NCBI GenBank assembly: GCA_947626825.1
Contig: CANQTM010000011.1
Location: 1-44,281 of the forward strand
Direction of reading: 5' to 3'
Length of the DNA stretch: 44,281 nt
Origin: an uncultured Bacilli bacterium
GTDB lineage: Bacteria > Bacillota_I > Bacilli_A > RFN20 > CAG-631
Position 1 is the first letter of the stretch; each line of letters starts with the position of its first letter. Shown piece by piece: positions 22,499 through 37,169 of the stretch. The notes beneath the pieces are model-generated. The model searched no databases. It was not told the origin of the DNA and saw only the letters and a program-made list of their open reading frames with translations. The position numbers were made by a program, and so were the translations under genes.

Positions 22499-25400
22499 AT
22501 GAAAAAACCTATAAAAGCCACAAGTAGCGCTTTATTAATTTCACTTTTATTTTTAGCATCATGTGGTGTTAAAAAATATTCACAAATTACTGATTCAAAT
22601 TCAGAAAGTAATGATGTTTATGTTGAAAGCGATTTTAGTAAGCCAGTTGCTCCTCAAAATTTATCATTTGATCCCGAAACAAATACATTATCATGGACTG
22701 CTGTTACAGGTGCAGTTGGTTATGATGTAATTTGTAATGGGCATAAAAGTACTTCAACTATTAAAACAAATAAATATAAATTACCTAATAATTTTTTAGC
22801 TGATGCTGATGAATATTTAATTGGAGTTAGAACTGTTGGAACTGATAATGTAAAATCAAACTATACAGTTTTCTCATATAATAGTAAAGATGAAGCAACT
22901 TCAACAAACGTTTTTACTTATGAAGTTGACTATACAAATAATGAATGTGCTATTAATGGTTTAAGCCCACTTGCAACACTTGATGATATTAGAGATATGG
23001 AAATGGGTGGTCAATTTAATGGCATGAATATTACAAAAATTGCAGATGGAGCATTTTTGGAATTAAATAAACTAACTAATTTCAATGTTACAATTTTACC
23101 TTCAATTAAAGTAATTGGTGCACATGCTTTTGAAAGAAGTTATGTTACTAAAATTAATTTTAATGAAGGGCTAGAAGAAATTGGTGATAATGCTTTTAAT
23201 AATGCCAGCCAATTAAATGGCTCAAAAGAAGATTTAAATGTTAAATTGCCTAATTCATTAAAAATCATTGGTGATAATGCTTTTTCAACATGTATGGCAT
23301 TAACTTCGGTAGTCTTAAATGAAAATTCTTTACTTGAAAAAATAGGTTCAAATGCATTTTATCGTTCTAAACTTACAACATTTGATTTACCAAGTTCAGT
23401 TAATGAATTAGGTGAAGGAGCTTTTTCAAGTTGTTCATCTTTAACCTCTTTTAATTTTTTAGGTACTACATCCTTAACTTCTTTACCAGCAAGTTGTTTT
23501 TCAGGAACTGTTTTAAGAGAATTTTATTTACCAGATCAAATTGAAGAAATTGGTAAATCATGTTTTGAATTTTCGTCATCAAATAATAATTTTAAATCTT
23601 TCTACTATACAAGTGATTCAAATTTAAAAACAATATCTGAAAATGCTTTTGCTAATTTAAGTCAAAATATATATTTTGGAATTCAAACAAGTGGTGAACA
23701 ACCATCTGGAGTTATTAATTTACCTAAAACGTTAGAAGTAATTGGTAATTCTGCATTTAAAGGTGGAAGATACACAACTGTAAGTTGTCCAAATGATTCA
23801 AAATTAAATAAAATAGGTGATAACGCTTTTAGTGGTGTTACGACATTAAAAGAAATTACATTACCTAGTTCATTAAAAGAAATTGGAGATAGTGCTTTTA
23901 GTGGTGATACAGTTTTAGAAACAGTAACTATGCCAAATGACATATCGTTAGATGTTTTATATTCAAATTCATTTAAGGATACTTCATACATAAAATCATT
24001 TGATAATACAAATCGAATTATTATTGCAAAATCATTATATGCATTGGCAAGTAATGAAACTTCAACAACTGATTTAGATTTATCTAATAGTAATGTAAAC
24101 ACTATTTCTGGAAAATTATTTGAAAATAAAACATTATTAAAAACTTTAAAATTAAATGATGGCTTGTTGAATATAAATGATTCTGCATTTAGCGGCTGTA
24201 CAAGTTTAACACAAATAAATATTCCTGAAAGTGTAATAAATATAGGAAATAATGCTTTTTATAATTGTTCAAGATTAGCAACATTAACTCTTGGAAATCA
24301 AACTACTGCTAAACTTGAAACTATTGGAGATGGTGCTTTTAGTAATAATATTTCAATTACAGAATTTGTATTGCCTGATAATGTTAGAACAATTGGTAAT
24401 GAGGCTTTTGAAGTTTCAAGTACAAATGTTAATAATTTAAAATTAGAAAGATTTGTTATTTCAAATAATTCAAAACTTGAAACTATTGGTGCAAATGCAT
24501 TTAATAATCAAAATAAAATAACAGAAATCAATATCCCAAATAGTGTTAAAACAATTAATGATAGTGCTTTTGTCAATTGTACAAACTTAACTAATATTAA
24601 CATTGATATGGCAAATTCAACTTTAGAAATTATTGGTAATAGTGCTTTTGAAAACACAAAAGTTGAAAATATAAATATACCTGGAACAATAACATATTTA
24701 GGAAATGCCGCATTTAAAAAATGTAGTTCACTTACAAATATTGAATTTGGTAATGGCGCCTTTACTAATTGGAATGTTAATGATAATACAAATGAAAGTG
24801 ATGAAGAAGATGAAGAAAATGTTCCTACTATCTTTTCTGAAACTTTTGCAAGTTGTAGTTCACTAGTAGCTATTTCATTACCTGAAAATATTAAAACAAT
24901 TGAAGATAACGCATTCTTAGATGCAAAAGAACTTGTTACTATTACAAGTAGTGCAACTAAAATTGGAAACTTAGCTTTTGCAAATACTGCATTTGAAAAA
25001 AGTTTTGCTGATGGTGTAGTTGAACATAATGGTATTGTTTTAAGATATATTGGCGATGGATCTCAACCAGTAGATCTTAGAGAAGGTTTAAAAATTAATG
25101 CTGGTGCTTTCGCGGATTCAGCATTAGTTATTATTAATTTACCAAGTTCATTACCAATTATTGATGATTATGCATTTGAAGATTGTACAAATTTAACAAC
25201 TGTCAATATTGATGATGATGCACAATTAACTGAAATTGGTACAAATGCTTTCAATGGTTGTACTAATTTAAAATTATTTAATTTTACAAGCAAAATTGAA
25301 AAAATTGCAGAAAATGCTTTTAACAGATGCCTTAGTTTAACTGAAGTTGATTTATCAAAAACTAAACTAACAGAAATTAGTTCAAATGCTTTTGCAAATT

Positions 25401-26515
25401 GTAATAATTTAAGTTCTGTAAAATTAAATAATGGTCTTGAAACAATTGGTGAATATGCTTTTTACCAAACTGCATTAAAAGATTTAGTAATTAAAAGTTC
25501 AATTACTACAATTAATAGTCATGCATTTGCTAGAATTGGAAAAGCAAATAACAATAGATTAGATCCTGTTAATTGGGAAATAACTCCTTCATTAGAAACT
25601 TTAACATTTGAAAACAATTCAAAATTAAATCACATTGGTAGTTATGCTTTTGAAAATAATATCATTAAAACAATAACATTACCTTCAAATGATGGCATGA
25701 AACTTGATGAATATTGTTTTGCAAATTCAAGACGAATTGAAGAATTTACAATTGAATTTGGCTTTGAAACATTAGAAGGTGTTATTAGTGGTGCAAGTAA
25801 TCTTAAGAAATTAGAAATACCAGGAAATATTCAAATTGCTTCAATATTTGGTGGCAAGATTTCAATGATTCCTACAACATTAAGATCTGTTACAATTGCA
25901 GATGATTCAGAAGCAATTACAGATAATGCCTTTTCAGGTCTTGGCATGGTTGAAGAATTTATTATTCCTAATACTGTTACAACAATTGGTGATTACGCTT
26001 TTTATGGTTGCCGTTCTATTAAATCAATAAATCTTGAAAGCATTACAAGTATTGGTAACAATGCCTTTAATGGATGCGTCAACCTAGAAAATATCAGTTT
26101 TGGAAAAGCTCTTGAATATATTGGTGACAAAGCATTGTTTGCCACAAAATATTTAAATTTAAAAGATGATGTTCAATTTGTTATTTTGGATGATATTTTA
26201 ATCCAATATAATGGTACTGATACTAATGTAACAATTCCATCGCAAGTAAAAGCAATAAGTGGTGGAGCATTCTCAGGAAATCAAACAGTAACAGAAATAA
26301 CATTAAGTAGCAATACTAAATTATTATGTAATGGTGCTTTTGATTCATGTTCAAAACTTTCAAAAATTACTATTCCATATGATGGTGTTGTAGAAATTGA
26401 ACTTGGTGTATTTGATACTTTATCTTCTAATTTGAAAATTTATGTTAAAAATGGCAAATTAAATGAATATAAAAATGATATTCATTGGTCATTATATGAA
26501 GATTATCTTGCATAA
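22499..26515 (+). CDS. BspA-like leucine-rich-repeat lipoprotein
   Basis: 1338-residue surface protein. The signal peptide ends in lipobox LASC (about residues 19-22). A fibronectin type III-like domain follows (PVAPQNLSFDPETNTLSW, about 50-130). From about residue 165 nearly to the end it consists of Treponema/BspA-type LRR_5 repeats of about 23 residues with the frame IGDNAF..CTSLTxIxIPxSVxxI, broken by a few acidic inserts (for example NESDEEDEENVP). There is no C-terminal wall anchor, so lipid anchoring at Cys22 is expected. BspA-type proteins mediate adhesion in several host-associated microbes; adhesion here is inference. A strong aggagg precedes the ATG. Confidence 0.92.
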   Translation: MKKPIKATSSALLISLLFLASCGVKKYSQITDSNSESNDVYVESDFSKPVAPQNLSFDPETNTLSWTAVTGAVGYDVICNGHKSTSTIKTNKYKLPNNFLADADEYLIGVRTVGTDNVKSNYTVFSYNSKDEATSTNVFTYEVDYTNNECAINGLSPLATLDDIRDMEMGGQFNGMNITKIADGAFLELNKLTNFNVTILPSIKVIGAHAFERSYVTKINFNEGLEEIGDNAFNNASQLNGSKEDLNVKLPNSLKIIGDNAFSTCMALTSVVLNENSLLEKIGSNAFYRSKLTTFDLPSSVNELGEGAFSSCSSLTSFNFLGTTSLTSLPASCFSGTVLREFYLPDQIEEIGKSCFEFSSSNNNFKSFYYTSDSNLKTISENAFANLSQNIYFGIQTSGEQPSGVINLPKTLEVIGNSAFKGGRYTTVSCPNDSKLNKIGDNAFSGVTTLKEITLPSSLKEIGDSAFSGDTVLETVTMPNDISLDVLYSNSFKDTSYIKSFDNTNRIIIAKSLYALASNETSTTDLDLSNSNVNTISGKLFENKTLLKTLKLNDGLLNINDSAFSGCTSLTQINIPESVINIGNNAFYNCSRLATLTLGNQTTAKLETIGDGAFSNNISITEFVLPDNVRTIGNEAFEVSSTNVNNLKLERFVISNNSKLETIGANAFNNQNKITEINIPNSVKTINDSAFVNCTNLTNINIDMANSTLEIIGNSAFENTKVENINIPGTITYLGNAAFKKCSSLTNIEFGNGAFTNWNVNDNTNESDEEDEENVPTIFSETFASCSSLVAISLPENIKTIEDNAFLDAKELVTITSSATKIGNLAFANTAFEKSFADGVVEHNGIVLRYIGDGSQPVDLREGLKINAGAFADSALVIINLPSSLPIIDDYAFEDCTNLTTVNIDDDAQLTEIGTNAFNGCTNLKLFNFTSKIEKIAENAFNRCLSLTEVDLSKTKLTEISSNAFANCNNLSSVKLNNGLETIGEYAFYQTALKDLVIKSSITTINSHAFARIGKANNNRLDPVNWEITPSLETLTFENNSKLNHIGSYAFENNIIKTITLPSNDGMKLDEYCFANSRRIEEFTIEFGFETLEGVISGASNLKKLEIPGNIQIASIFGGKISMIPTTLRSVTIADDSEAITDNAFSGLGMVEEFIIPNTVTTIGDYAFYGCRSIKSINLESITSIGNNAFNGCVNLENISFGKALEYIGDKALFATKYLNLKDDVQFVILDDILIQYNGTDTNVTIPSQVKAISGGAFSGNQTVTEITLSSNTKLLCNGAFDSCSKLSKITIPYDGVVEIELGVFDTLSSNLKIYVKNGKLNEYKNDIHWSLYEDYLA

Positions 26516-34719: not shown

Positions 34720-34745
34720 AAGCCCAATTTATGGGCTTTTTTAAT
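34720..34745 (+). terminator. Terminator of spo0A
   Basis: aagccca (34720-34726), 5-base loop, tgggctt (34732-34738), T run. Confidence 0.95.
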
Positions 34746-34829
34746 ATATATATTTAGATAAAAAATTTAATACTATAACTTTTTTTACAAAAAATCAATT
34801 TAAAAGATACCGCTTACATAAAATAATAA

Positions 34830-34858
34830 TTGCTTAATTGAAAAATAAAAAGTATACT
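34830..34858 (+). promoter_or_regulatory. Promoter of the riboswitch-controlled lipoprotein gene
   Basis: TTGCTT (34830-34835), 17-base spacer, TATACT (34853-34858). Predicted start near 34865 leaves about 16 bases before the aptamer and a leader of about 165 bases. Confidence 0.7.
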
Positions 34859-34880
34859 AAAGGTGTCTTAAATGATTCTT

Positions 34881-34944
34881 TGTCATATATTGCTTTAATT
34901 TGGAAAGCAGTTTCTACCCTAAACCATTAATTTAGGACTATGAC
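34881..34944 (+). ncRNA. Purine riboswitch aptamer, guanine class
   Basis: All parts of the purine aptamer are present. P1 is gtcata (34882-34887)/tatgac (34939-34944), J1/2 tatt, P2 gcttt/aaagc with loop aatttgg (34897-34903), J2/3 agtttcta (34909-34916), and P3 cctaaa/tttagg with loop ccattaa (34924-34930). The GG of L2 and CC of L3 can form the conserved loop-loop pairs. The specificity base before TATG (34938) is C, which in the Bacillus xpt aptamer pairs with guanine; adenine forms have U. J2/3 keeps the U51 equivalent, against the Mesoplasma deoxyguanosine type. Confidence 0.92.
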
Positions 34945-35010
34945 GGATATGTATTTCTTTTAAATTTATTATGAAATAATTCCGTCAATGATTGGAATCA
35001 TTTTGGAATG
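34941..35010 (+). promoter_or_regulatory. Riboswitch expression platform
   Basis: tgacgga (34941-34947), which includes the 3' strand of P1, is perfectly complementary to tccgtca (34981-34987), with an inner tatttc/gaaata stem (34952-34957/34973-34978). This alternative hairpin excludes P1. When P1 forms, attcc (34979-34983) is free to pair with ggaat (34994-34998) ahead of catttt, a weak terminator-like hairpin. That suggests ligand-induced repression, but the terminator is poor and the mode is uncertain. Confidence 0.55.
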
Positions 35011-35029
35011 AAAGAAAAAGGGAGAGAAT

Positions 35030-37105
35030 ATGAAAAAAAATTTGTTAAGAAAAGTTTTATTATGTTTTATGTTACCATTGGTTATTTATGGTTGTGGTAA
35101 CACCAATAATAGTTCTTCTACTTCTTCAACACCTTCTAATAGTAGTACATCAAGTAGTGAAGAAGATCTATTACCTTACATTAGTATTCAAGAAGCCATA
35201 AGTAAGGCAACAGAAGCTGGTGAAAGTGGTACAACTGAAGAATATTATATTAAAGGCATTGTTGAAGAAGTTACAAATCCAACATATGGGCAAATGACTG
35301 TTAAAGATGATACTGGATCTATCAATGTTTATGGTGTTTATGCTGCTGATAGAGAAACACGTTATGATGCTTTAGAGGATAAGCCAGTTGCAGGAGATGA
35401 AGTTAGCCTTCTTGGTAAATTAAAAACTTATAATGGTACTCCTGAAATGGATAGAGGATATCTACAAAAATTCAAACATAATAGCGCTAGTGATAAAGTT
35501 GATTTATCTACATATCCTGAAAAAACATTATTAGAAGCTCGTTCATTAAAAGAAGATGAAAAAGCTAAATTAACTGGTGTTGTATCATTTATTACTTATG
35601 GTCAAGGTATGAATCCTAATGGATTTTTCCTAACAGATAAAAATTCAGGTATTTATGTATATGGTGGTCAAGTTGCTCAACAAGTTAGTGTTGGTAATAC
35701 AGTTACAGTTGCTGCAGAAAAGACTTATTATATAGCAGATAATGAAAAAAATAATGCAGAAAAATTTGGTTACCAAGGTTGTTGTCAAATGGAAAATCCT
35801 GTATTAGTTGAAAACAAAAAAGATAAAGCAACAATTGATTTATCTTGGGCAAAAGAAACAACAATTAAAGATATTATTGATACTCCATTAACAAATAATA
35901 TTACAACAGAAATTTTTAAAGTAAATTCTTATGTTAGAAAAGCCCCAGGCAGTGGTTTTACAAATTATTATTTTAATGATTTAGATGGTAAAACTGGATC
36001 ATATACATATACATCAAATAATGGTAGTGATTTTAGTTGGCTTGATGAATTTGATGGTAAAATTTGTACAGTTTATTTATCACCATTAAATTGTAAATCT
36101 ACAGCTACTGGTTGCGTTTATCGTTTTATTCCTCTTCAAGTCAAAGATGAAAACTTTAAATTTGATGTTAAAAATGCTCCTCAATTTGCAATTGATTATT
36201 ATGCAAAAGATCAATTTAAAACAACATATACTGCAGATCCTGCATTAGAATTAATAACTAGTGTTTCATCTGATATTTTAGGATTTGAAGATGCAAAATT
36301 AACTTACACTTCAAATAATACAAATAGTGTTGATATAGTAAACGAAGATAGTAAAACTGTTTTACATACAAAAAATGTTGGTAAAGCTACAGTTACAATT
36401 AATGCTTCATATCAAACATATACTGCAACTGCTACAGTTGATATAGAAGTTAAAGAAGAAATTAAAGTTGATGCTGTTAATGTTAAAGCAGCGATTGATG
36501 CACAAGATGGCACTGAAATAACTGTTAAAGGCATTGTTATGTCATCTTTAGTTAACCAAACAGGTTTCTATTTAAATGATGAAACTGGAGTTATTTCAAT
36601 TAGATTAGCAAGTTCTGATACATTGTCTGATATTCATCTTGGTGATGAAGTTATCATTTCAGGAACTAAAGATCATTTCAAAAAGACTGAAGGAACATTT
36701 GCTGGTCAAGCAGCTATTGTTGATGCTGAATTAGTTACTAACAATTATGGAAATCATACTTATTCAGAAGCTTCTTTTGTTGAATCAACATTTGATGAAT
36801 TATATGCTAAAATTAATAATGTTACAGAAGATTACACTACAACAGTTTATAAGATTGAAGCTAAAATTACTTCTGAAACTTCAAAATATTTTTCAAATTA
36901 TTATGTAAATTCACCAACTACAAGTGATAGAATTACACTTTATTCTAGTTCAGGTAATCAATATTCATTCTTAGAACCATTTGTTGATCAAATAGTAACA
37001 ATTGAAATTGCTTTATGTAACTGGAATGCAAAAAATCCATATAAAGCATCTATCATTGCTGTTGTAACAGATTCTGGGAAAGTAATAAATTCATTTAATT
37101 TTTAA
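35030..37105 (+). CDS. Multi-domain OB-fold-like surface lipoprotein
   Basis: 691-residue lipoprotein: signal peptide ending VIYGC (Cys22), Ser/Thr linker (23-45), then OB-fold-like modules resembling those attached to secreted nucleases (YYIKGIVEEVTNPTYGQMTV, about 75-150; KLTGVVSFITYGQGMNPNGF, about 180-265). Next come a third module (about 285-375), an Ig-like domain (about 395-480), another OB-like module (TEITVKGIVMSSLVNQTGFY, about 495-580) and a closing module similar to the third. No catalytic motif was recognised. It is the only gene under the purine riboswitch, which suggests binding or acquisition of nucleic acid or nucleosides. Ribosome site gggagag. Confidence 0.85.
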   Translation: MKKNLLRKVLLCFMLPLVIYGCGNTNNSSSTSSTPSNSSTSSSEEDLLPYISIQEAISKATEAGESGTTEEYYIKGIVEEVTNPTYGQMTVKDDTGSINVYGVYAADRETRYDALEDKPVAGDEVSLLGKLKTYNGTPEMDRGYLQKFKHNSASDKVDLSTYPEKTLLEARSLKEDEKAKLTGVVSFITYGQGMNPNGFFLTDKNSGIYVYGGQVAQQVSVGNTVTVAAEKTYYIADNEKNNAEKFGYQGCCQMENPVLVENKKDKATIDLSWAKETTIKDIIDTPLTNNITTEIFKVNSYVRKAPGSGFTNYYFNDLDGKTGSYTYTSNNGSDFSWLDEFDGKICTVYLSPLNCKSTATGCVYRFIPLQVKDENFKFDVKNAPQFAIDYYAKDQFKTTYTADPALELITSVSSDILGFEDAKLTYTSNNTNSVDIVNEDSKTVLHTKNVGKATVTINASYQTYTATATVDIEVKEEIKVDAVNVKAAIDAQDGTEITVKGIVMSSLVNQTGFYLNDETGVISIRLASSDTLSDIHLGDEVIISGTKDHFKKTEGTFAGQAAIVDAELVTNNYGNHTYSEASFVESTFDELYAKINNVTEDYTTTVYKIEAKITSETSKYFSNYYVNSPTTSDRITLYSSSGNQYSFLEPFVDQIVTIEIALCNWNAKNPYKASIIAVVTDSGKVINSFNF

Positions 37106-37129: not shown

Positions 37130-37169
37130 AAACTGTTAAGAATCTTTAAAGATTTTTGACAGTTTTTTT
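37130..37169 (+). terminator. Terminator of the OB-fold lipoprotein gene
   Basis: Two-part stem: aaactgt (37130-37136)/acagttt (37159-37165) outside, aatcttt/aaagatt inside, followed by a T run. Confidence 0.85.

Follow-up and report, generated by a model that had tools for sequence, protein, structure and literature searches.

Why should a guanine riboswitch head the gene of a surface lipoprotein? In the stretch of 44,281 nucleotides from an uncultured Bacilli bacterium analysed here (hereafter the window), a purine riboswitch is followed by a single gene, whose product is predicted to consist largely of OB folds. An earlier sequence-only reading of the locus had stated that this sole downstream gene is neither a purine enzyme nor a purine transporter, and indeed no purine enzyme is found downstream.

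The guanine-class aptamer and its leader

Across the whole window, the only Rfam match above its gathering score is the purine riboswitch RF00167 at 34863-34960 on the + strand (62.7 bits versus a gathering score of 37, E = 1.1e-8). This covariance search, which the sequence-only reading had proposed, bears out its call of a guanine-class aptamer, as do the letters of the ligand pocket. Read from 34882-34944, these are U22, U51 (within the J2/3 segment GUUUCUAC, 34910-34917) and C74 (within GACUAUGAC). Because U22, U51 and C74 are the contacts of guanine-I aptamers (PMC9295807), we assign the aptamer to the guanine class. A 2'-deoxyguanosine riboswitch is excluded by U, not C, at position 51, and an adenine riboswitch by C, not U, at position 74. 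The P1/P2/P3 core, J2/3, the GG/CC pairs and C74 are all in place, but the earlier claim that every conserved element is present was slightly overstated, since L2 reads AAUUUGG (usually AAUAUGG) and L3 reads CCAUUAA (usually CCGUAAA); the GG/CC loop-loop pairs are kept despite these changed flanking letters. As a riboswitch it is genuine and of a usual kind; what is unusual is its target.

The source genome contains two purine riboswitches, the second of which precedes an azgA-type purine permease gene and scores similarly (63.1 bits). The leader of the lipoprotein gene, that of the genome's own azgA gene and that of azgA in a genome of the same family can be aligned from the cre-like box and promoter, through the aptamer, to the expression platform. 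In the lipoprotein leader, the following elements were identified:

34804..34819, no strand assigned: near-perfect cre-like (catabolite-responsive element) box ahead of the promoter, matching at 13 of 14 informative positions, putative function
34830..34858, + strand: promoter read from the sequence and aligned with the azgA leaders (-35 TTGCTT 34830-34835, 17-nt spacer, -10 TATACT 34853-34858)
34863..34960, + strand: guanine-class purine riboswitch aptamer (RF00167, 62.7 bits; P1 core 34882-34887 / 34939-34944; J2/3 34910-34917)
34941..34987, + strand: ligand-free hairpin of the minimum-energy fold, TGACGGA 34941-34947 / TCCGTCA 34981-34987, exclusive with P1
34954..35018, + strand: anti-ribosome-site pairing, TTTCTTTT 34954-34961 / GAAAGAAAA 35010-35018, predicted when P1 is held closed
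34979..35004, + strand: decayed intrinsic terminator with one stem mismatch and a T run down to four (leader alignment and local folding)
35020..35026, + strand: ribosome-binding site GGGAGAG, read from the sequence

The cre-like box recurs at aligned positions ahead of both azgA leaders (scores 14 and 13, scores of at least 13 being reached five times in the window with both strands counted). Conservation of this cre (CcpA) box before the lipoprotein and both azgA leaders suggests that they may be under joint control by carbon supply.

By folding, the lipoprotein leader adopts two mutually exclusive states, and the expression platform changes with P1. When free, the leader has the 3' strand of P1 paired with TCCGTCA, in a hairpin that both azgA leaders likewise contain, and its ribosome site is open. 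The unpaired probability of this site is 0.98 in the free state versus 0.19 with P1 enforced, and none of 300 linker shuffles gave an equally large change. Because folding closes the ribosome site together with P1, and no shuffle reproduced the effect, we predict a switch that turns the gene off mainly at the level of translation. The earlier proposal that the gene is off when guanine is plentiful thus finds support in folding. An OFF switch working through an intrinsic terminator, as in azgA, is weakened as a candidate: the azgA leaders have a clean terminator followed by a run of T, whereas the copied leader has lost stem pairing and part of the T run, and its local terminator hairpin reaches -8.9 kcal/mol versus -13.8 and -14.3 kcal/mol. 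Given the decayed terminator and the off-consensus L2 and L3, the function of the riboswitch is not assured. Guanine-I riboswitches (RF00167), such as that of B. subtilis xpt, share with this switch the architecture, U22/U51/C74 and the OFF logic. In contrast, they control a purine enzyme or transporter and not an OB-fold surface lipoprotein, and the platform here shows an apparent shift from termination to hiding of the ribosome site.

The association of riboswitch and lipoprotein gene is narrowly distributed. None of the loci of lipoprotein orthologs in 14 genomes of the order, the same genus included, carries a purine riboswitch, even at E < 5. Nearly all of 80 named relatives also lack one at the locus, some of their contigs starting near the gene, and the only nearby purine riboswitch among them is at a Clostridiales locus (L244, see below); more than 60 orthologs elsewhere have no upstream riboswitch. 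Because the three leaders align and the orthologs are devoid of the riboswitch, we take it as shown, at the level of sequence comparison, that an azgA-type permease leader, from promoter to platform, was copied ahead of a pre-existing lipoprotein gene. The link is nearly unique to the source species and, since more than 60 orthologs do without an upstream riboswitch, the basic role of the lipoprotein family is independent of it.

The lipoprotein and its predicted fold

The gene, its domains and the downstream terminator are positioned as follows:

35030..37105, + strand: OB-fold surface lipoprotein gene, 691 aa (ORF; signal peptide, lipobox cysteine C22; family alignments)
35186..35479, + strand: OB fold 1, residues 53-150 (PF01336, model)
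35522..35815, + strand: OB fold 2, residues 165-262 (model; homologous to OB fold 4)
35867..36145, + strand: OB fold 3, residues 280-372 (model; homologous to OB fold 5)
36245..36451, + strand: Ig-like domain, residues 406-474 (model; weak profile match to a domain of the S-layer protein Sap)
36482..36742, + strand: OB fold 4, residues 485-571 (BOF below curated cut-off, model)
36791..37069, + strand: OB fold 5, residues 588-680 (model)
37130..37165, + strand: intrinsic terminator after the lipoprotein gene

The upstream gene, spo0A, is closed by a terminator at 34720-34738. Because the lipoprotein gene has its own promoter and lies between this terminator and the one at 37130-37165, it looks monocistronic on sequence grounds.

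The sequence-only reading had described a lipoprotein of OB-fold and Ig-like modules and had proposed structure prediction as a check; family profiles, the lipobox and the model all agree with it. C22 is nearly invariant in an alignment with 47 relatives. Residues 74-140 match the Pfam OB fold PF01336 with 28.5 bits versus a curated cut-off of 27, and the same family is matched at E <= 0.01 in 31 of the 47 relatives; a second OB fold is indicated by a BOF match to residues 481-549 that lies below the curated Pfam cut-off. The AlphaFold model, built from 47 aligned sequences, has a mean pLDDT of 90 and contains five OB folds and one Ig domain, an assignment that is a reading of strand order backed by Pfam, internal profiles and Foldseek. 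The domain profiles also recognise one another, OB fold 2 with OB fold 4 and OB fold 3 with OB fold 5.

A sequence search of the PDB with the lipoprotein gave only a weak S-layer match. The best Foldseek matches to the model were p204 HINab with dsDNA (E 9.7e-8), RADX with ssDNA, RPA, Teb1 and Cdc13, with low TM-scores and from a structure library rich in DNA-binding OB proteins. These matches support the OB fold, and for function they provide a hint. HIN-200, RPA and RADX, the closest solved folds, have several OB folds in a row, as the lipoprotein does; unlike it, they are intracellular eukaryotic proteins, with about 10% identity and low TM-scores, and we claim no homology. Pfam and NCBIfam scans found no nuclease family in the lipoprotein. 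A BMP nucleoside-binding lipoprotein (PF02608) was considered and rejected, as no Bmp domain is among its Pfam matches.

Purine supply and riboswitch targets across the order

Of 58 genomes of the order, 56, including the source genome (95% complete), lack purC, which is present in the other two; controls were positive. In addition, purH was found in none of 14 genomes tested, while control genomes were positive; the source genome has neither gene. Both are also missing from every tested genome with a riboswitch-headed secreted-protein locus. Judged by gene content, the source bacterium appears to be a purine auxotroph, dependent on purines from outside. It has ComEC and one Endonuclease I gene, located away from the lipoprotein gene and without a riboswitch; no Bmp match occurs anywhere in the genome. 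Neither a nuclease nor a transporter gene lies beside the lipoprotein gene at the source locus. A conserved nuclease or transporter beside the orthologs can be discarded as well, their neighbours being varied across relatives except for an azgA-type permease at one locus (L229).

RF00167 was found in 98 of 279 genomes of the order, and the downstream gene was read for 116 purine riboswitches. The commonest targets are BMP lipoproteins (about 73), followed by azgA-type permeases (15), guanine-deaminase-like amidohydrolases (4), purE/purK (3), an NCS2 permease (1) and a phosphoribosyltransferase of the xpt type (1), with something else or nothing in six cases. The remaining 13 riboswitches, from four families of the order and including the one studied here, head large secreted or lipid-anchored multi-domain proteins. 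Some members of the survey are unusual in themselves. Ahead of the amidohydrolases (L097, L130, L146, L158), an OFF switch would be odd; in genome G068, a purine riboswitch lies about 140 bases before an M32 carboxypeptidase gene (L138). At L022, L023 and L026 (genomes G017, G005 and G026), an aptamer and terminator face a convergent gene, with no same-strand gene downstream, and are possibly orphan or trans-acting riboswitches.

In all eight secreted-protein loci of genera g48 and g35, the gene that follows on the strand encodes Endonuclease I (PF04231, with E-values of about 1e-24 to 1e-28). With gaps of 244-715 bases, the two genes may or may not be co-transcribed. Most genomes of the order (259 of 279) have Endonuclease I, but at a few copies per megabase genome one would be expected by chance downstream, on the same strand and within about 4.5 kb, with a probability of roughly half a percent per locus by our own arithmetic; the eight loci probably go back to a single ancestral event. 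The folding test used above revealed no ribosome-site switch in the eight leaders, whose platforms look closer to the terminator type. A further family (G035, L060) has an Ig-domain lipoprotein behind the riboswitch; this protein weakly matches the OB profile of the source protein, and its gene is followed by that of a Big_2 and metallo-beta-lactamase lipoprotein that looks ComEC-like. At L064:1548-1855, a riboswitch near-identical to that of L060 is followed by the apparent end of a gene otherwise lost, with a MATE transporter gene behind it. Overall, 7 of the secreted set's 11 complete proteins are matched by OB profiles of the source protein, as are two of the nucleases (E-values for 21 sequences).

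Outside the order, 50 genomes were searched. At the Clostridiales locus L244, the riboswitch is followed by an FAD-dependent gene and then, second in the cluster, by a lipoprotein ortholog with 42% identity. A second Clostridiales genome (L289) has the same arrangement, with a Metallophos lipoprotein in second place; this protein has a weak 5_nucleotid_C match and a faint OB match and is 5'-nucleotidase-like. As one such neighbourhood would arise by chance in the searched set with a probability that we estimate at a few percent, these clusters are suggestive only. Other Clostridia riboswitches (among L271-L290) precede a 567-aa protein of no assigned family or FAD-dependent oxidoreductases, neither being among the targets named in the purine riboswitch literature searched.

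Candidate roles of the lipoprotein

We lean slightly towards a lipoprotein that captures nucleic acids, whole or fragmented, from outside the cell and keeps them at its surface for purine salvage by an auxotroph, under a guanine OFF-riboswitch. Such scavenging, already put forward in the sequence-only reading, is favoured because of the purine auxotrophy, the permease-derived leader and the riboswitch-headed secreted OB proteins beside Endonuclease I elsewhere. The support is partial: no nuclease gene adjoins, the orthologs lack the switch, and OB folds can bind sugars or proteins. The system would have arisen when an azgA-type permease leader was copied before the existing lipoprotein gene. 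Without guanine, the P1 3' strand would pair with TCCGTCA and leave the ribosome site open; with guanine, P1 would close, the ribosome site would be drawn into a long hairpin and translation would stop. The five OB folds of the model, in their tandem arrangement, may bind DNA or RNA outside the cell. Relatives and genome content suggest the further steps: secreted nucleases, Endonuclease I for example, could cut this nucleic acid, and its purines could be taken in with the help of phosphatases and transporters (azgA in the source genome, BMP systems in relatives), guanine closing the loop.

The versatility of OB folds also accommodates another ligand, such as a glycan, a protein or a host surface, in which case the riboswitch would still answer guanine and guanine shortage would signal adhesion or foraging. 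The wide occurrence of the family in gut Bacillota without nuclease neighbours and the resemblance of the Ig-like part to S-layer domains fit such a role. We nevertheless consider it rather unlikely, given that the best fold matches are DNA-binding tandem-OB proteins, that the riboswitch derives from a purine permease gene and that the switches of relatives precede OB proteins beside nucleases. It is more doubtful still that the azgA leader was copied merely as a ready-made promoter, its riboswitch decaying without a selected role. The lineage-specific link, the mismatched terminator stem with its shortened T run and the L2 and L3 substitutions would agree with decay, but the P1/P2/P3 core is intact, its 62.7 bits about equal the 63.1 bits of the permease copy, P2 pairs better than in that copy (leader alignment), and folding reveals a clear ribosome-site switch that 0/300 shuffles reach. 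Finally, the prevalence of BMP nucleoside-binding lipoproteins among purine riboswitch targets in the order (about 73/116) could point to a nucleoside or oligonucleotide receptor feeding a transporter, and not to a binder of long nucleic acid; with no BMP gene in the source genome, no adjoining transporter gene and a fold unrelated to BMP, this is very improbable.

Capture of nucleic acid for purine salvage could belong to a wider scheme, to which we give slightly less than even credence. In purine-auxotrophic gut Bacilli, a guanine-riboswitch regulon for nucleic-acid feeding would comprise OB catchers, Endonuclease I or ComEC-like cutters, nucleotidases and nucleoside transporters, all shut by guanine; the lipoprotein, recruited by copying of the permease leader, would be the outside counterpart of multi-OB DNA-binding proteins. 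The present locus extends the targets of guanine riboswitches beyond enzymes and transporters of purines to surface proteins with a probable role in handling nucleic acids, by a copied permease leader in the source species and ahead of Endonuclease I loci in relatives. If true, the scheme would tell how bacteria without purine synthesis tune nucleic-acid feeding in the gut.

Known systems offer partial parallels. In Bacteroidetes, genes for ComEC and endonuclease I lie downstream of 2'-dG-II riboswitches (PMC8872408); as here, a purine-type aptamer is tied to DNA-handling proteins outside the cell or at the envelope. Those riboswitches differ in having C51 and binding 2'-deoxyguanosine, whereas U51 here leads us to expect guanine, and in phylum and target protein. 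The proposed regulon would parallel this unexplained link in another phylum and make it testable. The Shewanella extracellular nuclease ExeM needs its OB-bearing region for activity (PMC6085458), and B. subtilis uses YhcR to reclaim extracellular DNA for phosphate (PMC11458576). Like the lipoprotein, these proteins are surface-bound or secreted, ExeM having OB-fold regions and YhcR using extracellular DNA as a nutrient. In contrast, both are nucleases, which the lipoprotein, without a nuclease domain, is not, and the available YhcR account concerns phosphate and reports no riboswitch. Our literature search yielded nothing that connects guanine riboswitches with extracellular nucleases. Another large lipoprotein is encoded in the window at 22499-26515, a 1338-aa protein of the BspA type with leucine-rich repeats (LRR_5, 11 stretches).
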